Origin: an uncultured Erysipelotrichaceae bacterium
Lineage (GTDB): Bacteria > Bacillota_I > Bacilli_A > Erysipelotrichales > Erysipelotrichaceae
Reading direction: 5' to 3'
Length of the DNA stretch: 48,864 bases
Assembly (NCBI GenBank): GCA_944326055.1
Contig: CALVCT010000058.1
Span: 1-48,864, forward strand
Every line of letters begins with the position of its first letter. Within the stretch, counting starts at the first letter, position 1. The notes below the pieces were generated by a model, which saw only the letters and a list, made by a program, of their open reading frames with translations, made no database searches and was not told the origin of the DNA. A program made the translations under genes and the position numbers. Of this stretch, positions 16,146 through 23,521 are shown in pieces.

Positions 16146-17420
16146 ATGTTACAGAGCGTCAGAGGTACATATGACATCATCGGTGAAGAATTCCAGAAAT
16201 TCCACTATGTGAACGATCTCTTTGAGCATTTTATGAAGCTCTATGGCTATGAGATGATCAAGACACCAGTGATCGAAGATACAGCTGTTTTCAAAAAAGA
16301 CAACGATACAAGTGATGTGGTCACTAAGGAGATGTTTACATTTTCAATAAATGGTAAGGATTCCCTGACTTTAAGGCCTGAGGGTACAGCTGGTGTCATC
16401 AGAGCTTTTATCCAGCATAAACTATATGCTAGGGAGTTGCCAGTCAAGCTTGCTTATATCGAAGAGATGTTCCGCTATGAGCGCCCTCAAAAAGGACGTC
16501 AACGTCAATTCAATCAATTAGGCATCGAAGTCTTGGGTGATAAGTCACCACTCATCGATGCTGAAGTCATCGCATTGGGCTATTCTTTCCTTAAGACTTT
16601 GGGCATCGAAGATATGGAAGTGCACATCAATACACTTGGTGACAGCACTTCGCGTCTAAGATATCTAGAGGCTCTAAAAGAGTATTTTAGGCCACATATC
16701 GATGAGCTATGTGCTGATTGTAAGGATAGACTTGAGAAGAATCCTTTGCGCATCTTAGATTGTAAGATAGATCACGATAAGGATGTCATCAAGAGAGCTC
16801 CAAGTATCTATGATCACTTAGAAGATGAAGCAAAAAGCTACTTCAAACAAGTATTGAGCTATCTTGATGCTTTAGAGATACCATATGTCATCGATGAGCA
16901 CATGGTCAGAGGGCTTGACTATTATACAGATACTGTTTTTGAAGTCGTCAGCACCGATAAGGATGCAGGTAGTCAAAGTACGATCTTTGGCGGCGGCCGT
17001 TATGATTCTCTGATCGAAGAGATGGGAGGCCCTAAGATGTCAGGTATAGGTTTTGCGATAGGTGAAGAAAGACTTATAAGCGCAATGGAAAGCGCAGGCC
17101 TTTTTGATGATCTATCGATAACACCTGATGTCTATGTCATCGATCTGACTTCTCAAGATAGTTTCGCACTTGAAGTAGCAGAGATGCTAAGACACAATGG
17201 TTATGCGACAGAGCTCAATTACTACAAGCGTTCTTTGAAGTCGCAATTCAAGTCAGCAGATCGTAAAAAGACACGCTTTATCATCATCATCGGAGAAGAT
17301 GAAGTCAAAGAGCGAAAAGTCAGTCTTAAAGATAAGAAAGAAGAAACACAAGAAATGGTCAAGATCGAAGACTTGATCGCGAAGTTAGATGTTTTGATGG
17401 AGGGAGATAGAGATGAATAG
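16146..17420 (+). CDS. hisS: Histidyl-tRNA synthetase
   Basis: A class II synthetase of 424 aa: QSVRGTYDI at the N terminus, LRPEGTAGVIRAF (motif 2 region), the histidine-specific RGLDYYTDTVFEV and GGGRYDSLIEEMGG, then a C-terminal anticodon-binding domain. GGAGG lies upstream of ATG 16146, right after the T-box terminator. The 3' end overlaps aspS by 8 nt, so both synthetases share the T-box. Confidence 0.97.
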   Translation: MLQSVRGTYDIIGEEFQKFHYVNDLFEHFMKLYGYEMIKTPVIEDTAVFKKDNDTSDVVTKEMFTFSINGKDSLTLRPEGTAGVIRAFIQHKLYARELPVKLAYIEEMFRYERPQKGRQRQFNQLGIEVLGDKSPLIDAEVIALGYSFLKTLGIEDMEVHINTLGDSTSRLRYLEALKEYFRPHIDELCADCKDRLEKNPLRILDCKIDHDKDVIKRAPSIYDHLEDEAKSYFKQVLSYLDALEIPYVIDEHMVRGLDYYTDTVFEVVSTDKDAGSQSTIFGGGRYDSLIEEMGGPKMSGIGFAIGEERLISAMESAGLFDDLSITPDVYVIDLTSQDSFALEVAEMLRHNGYATELNYYKRSLKSQFKSADRKKTRFIIIIGEDEVKERKVSLKDKKEETQEMVKIEDLIAKLDVLMEGDRDE

Positions 17421-19152
17421 GACACACACAAATGGTGAATTGAGGATCGAAGATGTTGGTAAGAGCGTGACGCTTTGTGGCTGGGTAGCTAAAAGACGTA
17501 ACTTGGGTTCGATCTGTTTCATCGACCTTAGAGATCGCTATGGTATAACGCAGGTCATCTTTGATGAGACGATGTCTGAGAAGATCAAAGATGTCCGTAA
17601 CGAATATGTCTTGGAAGTCAAAGGTACTGTCCAAAAGAAAGACGTTCCTAATAAGAATTTAGCGACAGGAGAGATCGAAGTCCATGTCGAAGACGTGAAG
17701 ATCCTCAATAGTGCTAAGACGACGCCGATGATCATTGCCGATAAGACTGATGCGCTTGAAGATCTAAGACTCAAATATCGTTATCTCGATCTCAGACGCA
17801 AAGCTATCTATGACAATCTTATCGTTAGGGATAAGGTCGAGACGATCACAAGAGACTATCTGCATAAACTTGATTTCATCGAAGTCGAGACCCCGATATT
17901 ATCTAAATCGACGCCTGAGGGTGCACGCGATTATCTTGTGCCATCAAGACTCTATAAAGGCAAGTTCTATGCCCTTCCACAATCGCCACAGATCTACAAA
18001 CAACTACTCATGATCGGCGGTCTTGATCGCTATTTCCAGATCGCTCGCTGCTTCCGCGATGAAGATCTTAGGGCTGATCGCCAACCAGAGTTTACCCAGA
18101 TCGATATCGAGATGTCGTTTGCGGACGAGGAAGATATCTTCCATATCGTTGAAGGATTGATGAGCGATATCTTCAAAGGCGTCAAAGATTTGAAGATAGA
18201 TGAACATTTCGAGCGTCTATCATATGACGATGCAATGCGCTATTACGGTAGTGATAAACCAGATCTACGCTTTGGTATGCGCTTATGTGATCTAGATGAA
18301 GTATTTAAAGAAACTGCATTCTCGATCTTTAAGAAGACACTTGAAGATGGTGGTCTTATCAAAGGTCTGAAAGCAGAAGGTCTTGCTGAGAAGTATTCAA
18401 GAAAAGATCTTGACCACTTACAAGAATTCGTCAAGATCTATAAGGCAAAAGCATTGGCTTGGCTAAAATATACTAGTGAAGGACTGAGCGGTAGTATAGC
18501 TAAGTTCATGAGCGACGAAGAAAAAGATACGCTCATAGCGAAGATGGATCTACATATCGGCGATATCGTCTTTATGATCGCTGATGAGAAAGGTATCGCT
18601 GATGTCGCACTTGGTGCACTACGCACAAAAGTGGCAAAGGATAACGGTCTTATCCCAGAGGATGAGTATAAGTTCGTTTGGATCACCGATTTCCCAATGT
18701 TCGAATACTCAAAAGAACAAGGTATCTATGTCGCATGTCACCATCCTTTTACAGCGCCACATGCTGAGGATGTCGATAAACTTCTGACTGATAAAGGAAA
18801 CTGTTATTCAAGGGCATATGATCTTGTGCTCAATGGCTATGAACTGTTATCAGGATCTGTGCGTATCCATGATCAAGATATGCAAGAGAAAGTCTTTGAA
18901 GCTTTAGGACTCACTAAAGAAGAAGCTAAAGAAAAGTTTGGTTTCTTCCTTGAAGCTTTCGAATATGGTGCTCCACCACACTTAGGTGTTGGCATCGGTG
19001 TTGAAAGACTAGTCATGATCTTGTGTGGTACTGACAATATCAAAGATGTCGTTGCCTTCCCTAAGACAGCTAGTGCCATGTGCCTTATGTCAGAAGCACC
19101 GAATACTGTTGATGATGCACAACTTCAAGAACTTAAGATCAAGATCGCATAA
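17413..19152 (+). CDS. aspS: Aspartyl-tRNA synthetase
   Basis: 579 aa, bacterial type. It has an N-terminal OB fold (VTLCGWVAKRRNLGSICFIDLRD), the catalytic core with FRDEDLRADRQPEFTQIDIEMSF, a GAD insertion domain, and motif 3 GIGVERLVMILCG. It is co-transcribed with hisS under the T-box. GGGAG precedes the ATG inside the end of hisS. Confidence 0.97.
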   Translation: MNRTHTNGELRIEDVGKSVTLCGWVAKRRNLGSICFIDLRDRYGITQVIFDETMSEKIKDVRNEYVLEVKGTVQKKDVPNKNLATGEIEVHVEDVKILNSAKTTPMIIADKTDALEDLRLKYRYLDLRRKAIYDNLIVRDKVETITRDYLHKLDFIEVETPILSKSTPEGARDYLVPSRLYKGKFYALPQSPQIYKQLLMIGGLDRYFQIARCFRDEDLRADRQPEFTQIDIEMSFADEEDIFHIVEGLMSDIFKGVKDLKIDEHFERLSYDDAMRYYGSDKPDLRFGMRLCDLDEVFKETAFSIFKKTLEDGGLIKGLKAEGLAEKYSRKDLDHLQEFVKIYKAKALAWLKYTSEGLSGSIAKFMSDEEKDTLIAKMDLHIGDIVFMIADEKGIADVALGALRTKVAKDNGLIPEDEYKFVWITDFPMFEYSKEQGIYVACHHPFTAPHAEDVDKLLTDKGNCYSRAYDLVLNGYELLSGSVRIHDQDMQEKVFEALGLTKEEAKEKFGFFLEAFEYGAPPHLGVGIGVERLVMILCGTDNIKDVVAFPKTASAMCLMSEAPNTVDDAQLQELKIKIA

Positions 19153-19163: not shown

Positions 19164-19176
19164 ATATAAGGAGAAC

Positions 19177-22100
19177 ATGTTAGGATTCACAACTAAAAGA
19201 AAGATAGATAAGATGTCACCCGAAGAGGTGACGAAGAACATCGAAGATCTCAAGATCGAGATAGCCAAGTTAGAAAGCGACTTGGCTTCTTTTGCTGAGA
19301 AAAGAGAAGAGCTGATAAAAGAAAACAAGACCAAGATCGATGAAAAGAGAGCTTATCTTGAAGATGATCGTATCATCTCGATCGAAGAGGTCAAGAAGCT
19401 CAGGTCAGCCATCAGTATCGAACGCGATAAATTCAATAGCGTATCCAAAGAGCTCAATGATCTGATATCAAAACATCATGAAAAGAAGAGCATTCTTGAA
19501 AAAGATATGGATGAGAAGTTAACGATCTTAAGCAAAGATAATGAAAAGAAGATCAAAGAGCTCAAGAAAGAGTATGATGATAAGACCAAAGATCTACAAG
19601 TCGATTATGAGGCTGAAGAAGCGGCACTGATCGATGACAGTAAGAAGACCTTATCTAAGATCAGTGAGAACTTGAAGCGCCTAGATAGCGAATATAAGAG
19701 CTTAGAGAGTGAGATCAAAGCTGAACAGACAGCGATGATCGATAACTACAATCGTCTGATCGAAGAAGAAAGTGTCAAAAAGGACGCTCTAACGAGCAAG
19801 TCTAGCACGATACACAACAATCAAAGAGCCAAACAAGAAGCTCTAGACAAAAAGCTTGATGAGCTCTTGACTAAAAACAAAGCAGCACTCGAAGAGAAGA
19901 AGAAGACATTAGATGAAGGATATGAGAAGATGAAGGAAGCATTTGATAAAGAATTAGAAAGACAAAAAGCTGAACTGTTAGAGCTTACTAAACGTAAGAC
20001 AGAGCTTTCAGGTGCTTATACTAATGCCTACAACAGCTTCGAGAAAGAGAAAGAGAGCTTGATCGCTCGTTTCAATCAAGAGAGCGAGAATATCGATATC
20101 GAAAATAAACAATTAGCTGACAATGAAAAGAAGGCCAATGATGAGCTTTTGGCGATCAAAGAATCTTTAGCTAAAAAAGAAAGTGAACTACAAGCTTTTA
20201 AAGTCACAGCTGAAAAAGAGTATAACGATCTTGAAGCTGAACTTGAAGCTAGAAGACAAGATCTCATTGCGCGTCATGAGGCTCAAAGAGCCAGTGAAGA
20301 ATCGACATTAAGACAAGCTCTAGAAGAGATGCGCAAGCGCTATGTCGAGATGAAAGAGTCTTTGACTGTCGACAAAGAAAAAGAGATCACTAAGCTCAAT
20401 GCGGACTATCGTATGAACCAAAGACGCTATCTTTCAAAGACTAAAGAGCTACGTTCGCATTATGATGCTTTAAAATCTGAATATCAGGACAAGTTGAGCT
20501 CCCTTAGGAAGGCTAATATGATACTCAAGGATGAGATCGATAATGATACACATCGCTATGAGATCAAGATGATGTCGATCAATCAACAACTGACCGATGA
20601 AGATACGAACTTCAAACGCACTATCAGTAAACTTGAAGAAGAATATGAAGCGAAAGTCGATAGTATCAAGAGTGCTTCCAAAGAACACGAAGCAACTTTC
20701 ACAAAGGAGAAAGAAGTCCTAACAAGCGATATCGAAGCTCTGTCTAAAGAAGTCGAGATCAAAGATCTCTTCTATAAAAAAGAGCTCGCAAAATATGAAG
20801 CACAGATCGCCAGTATCGCTAAGATCAAAGAGACTCGTGAGCTTAATCACGATGCTGCTCTAAAAGCTATCGATGACGAGATCTCTTTGACTAAAAAGAA
20901 GATCGAAGAAACTGAAGTCGAAAAAGAAGATAAGGTCAAAGAGTATGCTCAAAGAAAAGAAAAAGCTCAAAGTGATCTTGAAAGTGATCTTGCGAAGCTT
21001 GAAGAAGCACATCAATCAAAGATCGTCGCTCTCAATGACGAATATGGTAAATTACGCCAAGATATCGAAAGAGATCTAAGTGAGAAGATCACAGAACGCG
21101 ACGAAGTCTTCGCTAACTTCAAGAAAGCTCATGAAGAAAGACTTGTGAAAAAAGATGATGAATTCCATCTTGAAGAGAAAAAGCTCCAAGAAGAAAAAGA
21201 AGCTTTGGATATCGAGTATGAGAAAGAATACGCTGAACTCTTGAAAGAAAACGAAGTCAAGAAAGCAGCCCTTGATGATCTACGATTGAAAAAAGAAGAA
21301 GAGATCAAAGTCAAAGAAGATGAGCTGAATAGACTCATGAGCGATCATGATAATAAGGTCAAGGAACTCAAAGAAGAATTTGAAAAAGAATCAGCAGAAC
21401 TTCTATCTAAAGAGTCTGAAGATCAGGATGCTTATAGCGAGGAACTTACTGGCCTTACAGCGAAGCTTGAAGAGAAACGTTCTGATATCGTCAAGATGCA
21501 AAGCGATTATGAAGCGAAGATCCGTAACTTCAAAGAACTCATCGAGAAGGCAGAACACGATCTTGAGATCTTAGCTCAAGATCATGCCCTAGCTATCGCT
21601 GATAAGAGAAGCGAGAAGGAAGCGATATGCAAAGACTTGAGCGAGGCTTATAAGTCGATCGAAGCTAAAGTCGAGGCTTCTAAAAAAGACTACGAAGAAT
21701 ATCGTGCTCTTTTGGATGCAAAACTTGACAAAGCTAAAGAGGATCTCAATAAGGATGAGAGCGATCTTGTCATCGCTAACGAAGAGATACGTTCTTCAAC
21801 TCTATCCCAAAGCAAAAAAGCTCAAGCTCAACATGAAGCAGAACTCGATAAGAAAAGAGAAGATCTTGAGATCGAATATAAAGCTAAAGAGGCAAGAGTC
21901 AGGGCTGACCTTGATGAATTAGCCAAAGCTAATGAAGCTCTGCGTCAAAGTCTTGAAGCTAAGCTCTTAGATGTCAAACGAGCAAATAGCGATATCGACA
22001 TGCGTTATCAGAAGGCTAGAGAAGATCTACATAAGGAACTATTAGAGAGACAGGAAGCCTATGATGCAAAAAGGGCTAGTCTTGATGAAGAGTTCTTGAA

Positions 22101-23106
22101 AACAAGACGCCGCTATCAAGATGAGCTCGCAAGGCTCAGAGCTGATAATATCAAGCGTATCAAAGAACTTGAGGCACATAATGATAGCGTTAGAAGTGAG
22201 ATCTCTAAGCTTGAAGAAGATGAGAAGTTGGCAAGAGCTAGTTATGATTCAGAACTCAAGGATCTCGACAACGCTCTTAAGATCGAAGGGCAAGAGTTCG
22301 CTAAAGCCAAAGAGGCATACGCATCAGAGCTTGATGATTGTATAAGATTGATAAGTGCCCTTAAAGCTGATCATCAAACAAAGATGCAAGCAGCGCAAGA
22401 TAAGATCGAGGATCTTGAAAAGCGTAAAGCCAACTTTGAACAAGAGCACAAACGAGCTCTAAGAAAAGTCAAAGAGGAACATGAAGCAGCTTTAGCTAGA
22501 CGTCGTGCTGATCATGATGCCAAGATCAGATCTTATACGGATGCGCTCGATGCTTTAGTCATGAAGATCCATGACCAAGAAAACGTCATCAAAGAAGCGT
22601 ATCGCGTCAAACTTGATGAGTTAGCTACAAGCTTCGACGAAAAGAAGACTGAGCTCATGGAACGTCGCCTCAATATGCAAAACGACTATGACAAGCTTGT
22701 AAGTTCTTTAGAAGAAAAGATCGCTGATCGTCAAGTCGATCTAGCTTCTATCGACAAAGAGTTACAAAGAGAACTTGAGAATGCTAATAGTTCTATGCAA
22801 GATCTGCAAAGCACACATGATGAGCGCATCAAAGAGCTGATCGAAAAAGAAGAGGCACATATCGCTGAACTCAAAGACGAGAGTGAAAAACGTCGCTCTA
22901 TGATCATGAAGGAGCGTCAAGAACTCGCATCAAGAGCGAGGGCGATCAATGCTGAGATCTTGAAGATGAAAGAAGAATACAACACTAAGAAGGATGCCTT
23001 TATCAGTGATAGTCAAGATCTTCAAAAGAGCTACAGTAAGATGCTCGATGATTATAAGAGCGAAGTAGCCGCAAAAGACAGTAAACACTCTTTCTTTAGA
23101 CGCTAA
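19177..23106 (+). CDS. Giant coiled-coil protein of unknown function (1,309 aa)
   Basis: I do not recognise a family. The start is firm: AAGGAG lies 3 nt before the ATG. The protein is Lys/Glu/Asp/Leu-rich with continuous heptad-like spacing. The only proline I find is residue 15; there is no tryptophan, two cysteines and very few glycines. It therefore looks like one unbroken helical rod, roughly 190 nm if fully extended. There is no signal peptide or membrane segment; the N terminus is MLGFTTKRK and the C terminus KHSFFRR, both basic with a small hydrophobic patch. Similarity to SMC, myosin or spectrin in a search would be compositional. It may be a cytoskeletal, scaffold or nucoid-associated element (inference). 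Codon use matches its neighbours. Confidence 0.9.
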   Translation: MLGFTTKRKIDKMSPEEVTKNIEDLKIEIAKLESDLASFAEKREELIKENKTKIDEKRAYLEDDRIISIEEVKKLRSAISIERDKFNSVSKELNDLISKHHEKKSILEKDMDEKLTILSKDNEKKIKELKKEYDDKTKDLQVDYEAEEAALIDDSKKTLSKISENLKRLDSEYKSLESEIKAEQTAMIDNYNRLIEEESVKKDALTSKSSTIHNNQRAKQEALDKKLDELLTKNKAALEEKKKTLDEGYEKMKEAFDKELERQKAELLELTKRKTELSGAYTNAYNSFEKEKESLIARFNQESENIDIENKQLADNEKKANDELLAIKESLAKKESELQAFKVTAEKEYNDLEAELEARRQDLIARHEAQRASEESTLRQALEEMRKRYVEMKESLTVDKEKEITKLNADYRMNQRRYLSKTKELRSHYDALKSEYQDKLSSLRKANMILKDEIDNDTHRYEIKMMSINQQLTDEDTNFKRTISKLEEEYEAKVDSIKSASKEHEATFTKEKEVLTSDIEALSKEVEIKDLFYKKELAKYEAQIASIAKIKETRELNHDAALKAIDDEISLTKKKIEETEVEKEDKVKEYAQRKEKAQSDLESDLAKLEEAHQSKIVALNDEYGKLRQDIERDLSEKITERDEVFANFKKAHEERLVKKDDEFHLEEKKLQEEKEALDIEYEKEYAELLKENEVKKAALDDLRLKKEEEIKVKEDELNRLMSDHDNKVKELKEEFEKESAELLSKESEDQDAYSEELTGLTAKLEEKRSDIVKMQSDYEAKIRNFKELIEKAEHDLEILAQDHALAIADKRSEKEAICKDLSEAYKSIEAKVEASKKDYEEYRALLDAKLDKAKEDLNKDESDLVIANEEIRSSTLSQSKKAQAQHEAELDKKREDLEIEYKAKEARVRADLDELAKANEALRQSLEAKLLDVKRANSDIDMRYQKAREDLHKELLERQEAYDAKRASLDEEFLKTRRRYQDELARLRADNIKRIKELEAHNDSVRSEISKLEEDEKLARASYDSELKDLDNALKIEGQEFAKAKEAYASELDDCIRLISALKADHQTKMQAAQDKIEDLEKRKANFEQEHKRALRKVKEEHEAALARRRADHDAKIRSYTDALDALVMKIHDQENVIKEAYRVKLDELATSFDEKKTELMERRLNMQNDYDKLVSSLEEKIADRQVDLASIDKELQRELENANSSMQDLQSTHDERIKELIEKEEAHIAELKDESEKRRSMIMKERQELASRARAINAEILKMKEEYNTKKDAFISDSQDLQKSYSKMLDDYKSEVAAKDSKHSFFRR

Positions 23107-23109
23107 GGC

Positions 23110-23138
23110 TTTCATAGTCTAGGATGGTCTGCTATAAT
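23110..23138 (+). promoter_or_regulatory. Promoter of the 6S-like RNA / yneF unit
   Basis: TTTCAT (23110-23115), a 17-bp spacer and a perfect TATAAT (23133-23138), with TGC before it as an extended -10. The predicted start, about 23145, coincides with the first base of the closing stem of the RNA. Confidence 0.7.
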
Positions 23139-23305: not shown

Positions 23306-23521
23306 ATGGGATTTGGACTTGAGACCTTCATCTACTTATTAGTTGGTATCATCATCGGTGGTATCGCTGGCTTCTTCATCGCTAGACATTTCTTGAAGAA
23401 AGAACTAGAGAAGAACCCACCTATCACTGAAAAGATGATCAGAGCGATGTTCATGCAGATGGGCAGGAAGCCAAGCGAAGCACAGATCCGTGCTGTCATG
23501 AAGTCGATGAATCAAAAATAA
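23306..23521 (+). CDS. YneF-like UPF0154 small membrane protein
   Basis: 71 aa: one membrane span at about residues 6-27 (TFIYLLVGIIIGGIAGFFIAR), then a basic/polar tail with KNPPITEKMIRAMFMQMGRKPSEAQIRAVMKSM, the hallmark of UPF0154. The biochemical function is unknown. AGGAGG lies 5 nt before the ATG. It sits directly behind the 6S-like RNA and is followed by a terminator. Confidence 0.92.
   Translation: MGFGLETFIYLLVGIIIGGIAGFFIARHFLKKELEKNPPITEKMIRAMFMQMGRKPSEAQIRAVMKSMNQK

Follow-up and report, generated by a model that had tools for sequence, protein, structure and literature searches.

A gene in a 48,864-nucleotide stretch of DNA from an uncultured Erysipelotrichaceae bacterium (contig CALVCT010000058.1; the whole stretch is called the window below) encodes a 1309-residue rod protein, which probably serves inside the cell as a molecular ruler or strut of a previously undescribed kind and is found in one genus of gut-type bacteria. 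Two facts about this protein are the strongest, and both had escaped the original prediction made from the letters of the window: its length is near-invariant, with almost no insertions or deletions (indels) despite fast divergence, and its chain carries an exact super-repeat of 245 residues. The comparison of orthologues shows a pattern in which selection would hold the length and the register of the rod almost to the residue while the sequence drifts.

The gene was defined by an open reading frame (ORF) call and by its orthologues and lies at positions 19177..23106 on the + strand, with AAGGAG, a Shine-Dalgarno-like sequence read directly from the DNA, ahead of its ATG (19168..19173, +). As had been predicted, the 1309-residue chain is proline-free after residue 15, which is its sole proline, and has no tryptophan; it contains 6 glycines and 2 cysteines. 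The ORF is under purifying selection and is a real gene, not an artefact, as shown by its orthologues in other species and by a strong excess of changes at synonymous sites (for the closest orthologue pair, nonsynonymous divergence dN is 0.125 and synonymous divergence dS ~2.9). The maximal hydropathy averaged over 19 residues is only 0.33 and therefore the rod has no membrane span. Inspection of the sequence and its hydropathy revealed no sign of a signal peptide, a membrane span or a wall anchor. With 327 acidic and 266 basic residues, it is acidic overall. Its length was estimated at ~192 nm from ~1294 helical residues of 0.1485 nm each. These data support the proposal made at the outset, a coiled-coil rod of ~190 nm that is continuous, lacks heads and membrane spans and has basic ends.

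We compared eight orthologues, all from metagenome-assembled genomes (MAGs). Four of them have exactly 1309 residues each and can be aligned to the window rod without a single gap, the identity being 42-51% (81% for one pair), and the remaining full-length orthologues, of 1306, 1297 and 1286 residues, belong to two clades at ~18-20% identity. The eight-way alignment is gapless from residue 5 to ~1084, after which a one-residue insertion is found in one species. The main length difference, an 18-residue deletion accompanied by small ones, comes after residue 1172, and this 18-residue gap corresponds to five turns of the helix. In a second run of the aligner, gaps of 11 and 7 residues fell further towards the N-terminus instead, so that the placement of gaps between distant clades depends on the settings used. 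Among the same species, the neighbouring aspS product is 72-82% identical while the rod is far less so at a fixed length; therefore, the sequence of the rod appears free, with its length and register held. Between clades, hydrophobic residues are kept at 72-76% of positions on the core face and at 17-24% on the outer face (76% vs 24% for G000 vs G007, two members of the genus), and residue identity on the outer face is 13-16%. Conservation of length while the sequence diverges is the published mark of a coiled-coil spacer (PMC5082667), and this is what the rod family displays. Golgins such as giantin (PMC5082667) are alike in that their length is kept while their sequence diverges, their ends are fastened and the rod serves as a spacer. 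However, the rod described here has no transmembrane or GTPase-binding end, and its length and register are far tighter.

The hydrophobic stripe of the helix has a period of 3.604-3.606 residues in all seven full-length proteins. In the window rod the period is 3.604 and the stripe is phase-locked over the whole chain, with a windowed spectral power of 8.3 against at most 2.0 in shuffles. The heptad-like spacing read in the original prediction needs correction, as the hydrophobic period is on average 3.604 and not 3.5. The ratio of whole-chain to local-window coherence is 0.84-0.89 in six full-length orthologues and 0.69 in G005; the same ratio is 0.45-0.51 in six full-length SMC proteins of the family and 0.59-0.73 in their much shorter arms. 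SMC/MukB-type proteins are thus long bacterial coiled coils like the rod, but the rod has no ATPase head or hinge, and the SMC proteins of the same genomes lack whole-chain coherence. Heptads correspond to 3.5 residues per turn, as against 3.63 for an undistorted helix (PMC9858780). Since 3.604 lies between the two, the supercoiling should be left-handed and very weak, and the rod nearly straight. The stripe is narrow, and alanine makes up 2.9% of the core sector against 12-14% outside it. A single helix lying on the membrane in the manner of an apolipoprotein was rejected on the acidic net charge and this narrow stripe.

The super-repeat was detected by matching the family profile against itself at in-phase shifts of up to 1200 residues, with phase-preserving shuffles as the null. 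The four best shifts were 490, 980, 245 and 735 residues (z = 10.7, 5.3, 8.0 and 5.9, respectively), and the scores at 245 and 490 were 0.533 and 0.655, while no shift in any of 300 shuffles scored above 0.514. When three diverged clades were taken separately, the best two shifts of each included 245 or 490. The stripe also drifts back and forth in phase, by roughly a tenth of a turn and once every ~246 residues, and it does so synchronously in six of the seven full-length proteins (spectral share 0.32-0.41; 95% null, 0.21). This test draws on data that overlap with those of the shift test, so that the two are not fully independent. One unit amounts to 68 turns or ~36.4 nm; arithmetically, 245 residues with this number of turns make up 13 heptads and 14 hendecads. 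When the units are folded onto one another, a local period of 3.56-3.58 (heptad-like) is seen at residues ~16-105 and one of 3.65 (hendecad-like) at residues ~121-165; a canonical heptad coiled coil of period 3.5 was not found, 3.56-3.58 being reached in part of each unit only. Direct identity between units is just 14-15%, against a background of 9%, so the super-repeat would not be picked up by ordinary repeat finders. The self-shift analysis divides the rod into 5.34 copies, in a repeat frame that is arbitrary: unit 1 (residues 1-245; 19177..19911, +), unit 2 (246-490; 19912..20646, +), unit 3 (491-735; 20647..21381, +), unit 4 (736-980; 21382..22116, +), unit 5 (981-1225; 22117..22851, +) and a partial sixth unit (1226-1309; 22852..23103, +). 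We infer that a 245-residue unit was duplicated in tandem to give the repeat, and that the heptad-like parts, which are left-handed, would together with the almost untwisted hendecad-like ones keep the net supercoiling low and the rod straight.

The same repeat might have another use. Rods offset along their axis by n x 245 residues (~36 nm) could polymerise into a bundle, sheet or filament with a regular period, in which the repeat would let staggered molecules present equivalent surfaces. Such a periodic filament with a 36-nm stagger is the main rival to a ruler or strut, and we consider it rather unlikely. The strongest self-matches fall precisely on 245, 490, 735 and 980, chains so shifted match core to core, and 5.34 units would leave a gap/overlap pattern of the collagen type. 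Acidic positions repeat too, although more weakly (z 4.5 at 245). However, the repeat signal comes mostly from core residues, as duplication alone would give, the charge-pair attraction of parallel rods has no peak at 245 n (best staggers ~949 and ~1075, z ~2.6), and a second assembly motif was not found. In collagen, with its D-period, and in the staggered myosin rod, the axial repeat spans a fraction of the molecule's length and is set mainly by surface charge. The protein studied here is likewise a long rod with a comparatively short axial repeat, but its repeat is mostly in the core and its polymerisation is hypothetical.

Repeated units could also dock one partner each, much as tropomyosin offers recurring contacts to troponin and actin. 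The exactness of the repeat would suit such a platform, as would unit positions 111, 122 and 133 in the hendecad-like part (e.g. around residues 367, 612 and 1102), where aromatic and polar residues recur and the core is enriched in His, Tyr, Phe and Asn; in hendecad dimers, Ala is known at such core positions. We nevertheless find a docking platform improbable, as the outer face diverges almost freely between clades and strong conservation is confined to one block that occurs once, not five times. This most conserved block (residues 246-276, DEGYEKMKEAFDKELERQKAELLELTKRKTE; 19912..20004, +) has its conservation maximum at residue 262 and contains the invariant residues E247, K251, M252, L260, E266, L267, E269 and L270. 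It is a candidate partner-binding patch.

Both ends of the rod are distinctive. The N-terminal end (residues 1-14, MLGFTTKRKIDKMS; 19177..19218, +) consists of a short basic-aromatic segment followed by an S/T-x-x-E helix cap and is kept in all orthologues, in the form of a short basic segment with Phe or Ile and then S/T-x-x-E/D. At the other end, orthologue comparison delimits a basic-aromatic stretch of 11 residues, ...KHSFFRR (23071..23103, +). The corresponding tails of relatives read GLFGLFKKKK, GLFNHFKKKR and GFMGIFKRKK, and the tail is basic and aromatic in all orthologues. The ends look like short amphipathic membrane-targeting segments such as those of MreB, MinD and FtsA, and may bind the membrane.

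No match to the window rod protein was found in Pfam or NCBIfam, and searches of PHROGs and PDB sequences with the rod family gave nothing beyond weak compositional matches. Matches to Apolipoprotein, ZMYND8_CC and Baculo_PEP_C, each in one family member, were weak and compositional as well. More generally, no composition-robust match to a known family, whether SMC-like or M-protein-like, turned up. An SMC-like ATPase, which would have ATPase halves at both termini (Walker A/B, signature) and a hinge, was rejected on the lack of any Pfam or NCBIfam match, the true SMC of the genome being encoded elsewhere (G000:C62). A rod of the ZorA type (Zorya defence), which would join a MotA/TolQ-type membrane domain to a long helical tail, was rejected too: the PADLOC ZorA match covers residues 1060-1300 only, in the tail (E-value 1.6e-4), and there is no membrane span. 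A phage tape-measure or other phage protein was set aside given the lack of a PHROGs match, the absence of the rod from viral contigs and its housekeeping neighbours. A surface or secreted fibrous protein resembling M protein, as the long coiled coil and fast-evolving sequence might suggest, is hardly probable at all, as none of the expected export or anchoring signals was recognised, no family matches and the gene sits in a housekeeping operon.

Membership of known cytoskeletal families was tested in the same way. The DivIVA-like family is marked by a GY[DN]xx[QE]V[DN] motif, followed by a heptad coil that dimerises (PMC9858780). This motif is absent in all eight orthologues and there is no PF05103 match, so membership with DivIVA, GpsB, FilP or Scy was rejected. 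The FilP/Scy type of rod was rejected on the period of 3.604 and the alanine-poor core. Scy and FilP of Streptomyces are alike in being long rods of Gram-positive bacteria that mix heptads and hendecads, but theirs are almost pure hendecads with an Ala-rich core, in another phylum, and lack the combination of 3.604 and the 245-residue repeat. It is very unlikely that the rod is an unusual relative of Scy/FilP/DivIVA, crescentin or HMW2 beyond sequence detection. A long heptad and hendecad rod in a Gram-positive lineage without MreB would fit such a relative, and the modelled short N-terminal helix, loop and long helix recall a DivIVA-like topology. The missing DivIVA-like motif and Pfam DivIVA match speak against it, as does a core unlike that of FilP/Scy (PMC9858780).

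A nearer parallel comes from the mycoplasmas. HMW2 has 1257 coiled-coil residues with a calculated length of 190 nm and sets the length of the attachment organelle of M. pneumoniae at ~0.15 nm per residue (PMC8191905). By description, the two have in common a very long headless coiled coil of a calculated ~190 nm, in HMW2 from a small-genome relative of Bacilli, and a helix whose length could set that of a structure. They differ in architecture: the 1818 residues of HMW2 hold 11 coiled-coil domains separated by linkers, while the rod has one unbroken register in 1309 residues with an exact 245-residue repeat. An attachment organelle is known there and none here, and it is by description that the rod, without any Pfam or NCBIfam match, is set beside HMW2.

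Altogether, we put the probability that the rod is a cytoplasmic ruler or strut with fastened ends at about 0.5. This reading is favoured because the family behaves as published spacers do and because HMW2 is the nearest working parallel. The protein would form a parallel, in-register coiled-coil homo-oligomer, probably a dimer, giving a nearly straight rod of ~190 nm whose two ends would fasten it to the membrane or to partners at a fixed distance apart. A cytoskeletal or spacer role, as first suggested, remains the best reading.

Some observations weigh against a ruler or strut. The G005 rod loses phase near its C-terminus, and G006, a member of the same genus, has no rod gene at the locus. 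In addition, AlphaFold2 (AF2) monomer models of two halves (residues 1-560 and 556-1309; seven or eight orthologues as input) break the helix near 300-305, 821-830 and 1092-1098. The two halves were modelled as essentially all helix with low confidence (mean predicted local distance difference test score 71 and 66, predicted template modelling score ~0.2), with a short separate N-terminal helix at 3-11 and a break at 12-14, and no globular domain was predicted in them. At the break sites the orthologues have no conserved Gly or Pro, no indels and an intact stripe; for these reasons we judge that the breaks are probably artefacts of single-chain folding. Taken at face value, they would suit a folded-back bundle of ~245-residue helices, a giant zigzag with the repeats as arms. 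We give this arrangement a very small probability: the helical register runs through the break points in all orthologues, and turns normally tolerate indels, of which there are none at these points. A search for antiparallel pairing gave no repeat-spaced family of matches.

The distribution of the rod is narrow. A plain search of 60 relatives found it in the same genus only, and a profile of seven members searched against 272 family genomes found it in eight of the nine members of the genus (G000-G008), within Erysipelotrichaceae, and in none of 58 other genera. The gene is therefore kept in close relatives, at the hisS-aspS / 6S-yneF locus or beside yneF. A contig scan gave a single named relative, CALUZL010000044.1, an uncultured Erysipelotrichaceae MAG. 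Among 395 genomes of the class, the profile gave compositional matches only; those in G351 and G387, from another family of the class, were rejected as lipoproteins with a coiled coil of period 3.62. Lipoprotein-like proteins with a coherent coiled-coil stretch of period 3.62 were noted in another family of the class (L067:646-2565 and L068:649-2568). Within the genus, conserved proteins of 1201 and 1329 residues with a long coiled-coil segment turned up beside the SMC search (L082:2714-6316, -, and L083:727-4713, +, in reading-strand coordinates). Sequence inspection suggests that they are probably membrane permeases, and they were rejected as rods for want of a coherent rod.

Gene names at the locus are by sequence recognition without a family scan, except for aspS, 6S, MreB, SMC and DivIVA/GpsB. 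In six genomes the order is aspS, rod, 6S, yneF and a membrane-anchored transglycosylase-like gene (6S checked in five). A peptidase gene precedes the rod in G005 and G001, and yneF and the transglycosylase-like gene follow it in G005. In G006 the order is aspS, 6S and yneF with no rod, and in other genera (e.g. G025, G028) aspS and yneF are near neighbours, again with no rod between them. Since the aspS tree groups G006 with outgroup genera, the fork above being unresolved, the rod may either have arisen once G006 had diverged or have been lost from it. In the window, aspS (17413..19152, +) ends 25 bp upstream of the rod gene and is probably on the same transcript. Downstream, the 6S RNA gene ssrS (RF00013; 23141..23296, +), a neighbour and not part of the rod gene, is confirmed, in agreement with the 6S-like RNA noticed earlier: it scores 42.5 bits, just under the 46.4 cut-off, and is over the cut-off at the same place in five relatives, including the rod-less G006. 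It is preceded by a promoter-like site, TTCATA-16-TATAAT with TG before the -10 (23111..23138, +; 10/12 matches), and followed by the gene of a yneF-like small membrane protein (23306..23521, +), which is also present in other genera without the rod. No T-box was matched at the gathering cut-off anywhere in the window. In G006, a T-box leader (RF00230, 109.7 bits; L065:5711-5909, +) lies ahead of hisS-aspS.

A reduced division cluster had also been ascribed to the host. For the part of this claim that was looked at, no MreB was found in any member of the genus (G000-G008), nor in G010, G012 and G013, the mreB-family matches in all of these being DnaK-sized proteins only. True MreB is kept in several sister genera, and MreB seems to have been lost repeatedly within the family. 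MreB loss was rejected as a full explanation of the rod, since several other genera without MreB have no rod either. The only DivIVA-family protein in the genus is GpsB-sized and encoded elsewhere in the genome. The lack of MreB and of any DivIVA protein larger than GpsB is compatible with a structural role, yet it is common to genera without the rod.

To our knowledge, few bacterial molecular rulers are known. The rod would represent a new family within the long bacterial coiled-coil rods, its new feature being the exact super-repeat. More tentatively, it could be a new genus-specific cytoskeletal element, a straight 190-nm strut in which five 245-residue units follow in tandem and supercoiling is cancelled by the alternation of their heptad and hendecad parts, and which would build a 36-nm-period assembly or set a fixed cell dimension in a host that lost MreB. 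That a protein family has had its length and register held while its sequence was let go can here be read from sequence alone, and the long-range repeat that goes with it is of a kind that family and repeat searches overlook. Matching profiles at phase-locked self-shifts could find similar hidden rods elsewhere. The idea of a ruler is directly testable, as it predicts the length of the rod (~190 nm), an axial period of 36.4 nm and the effect of removing one unit.

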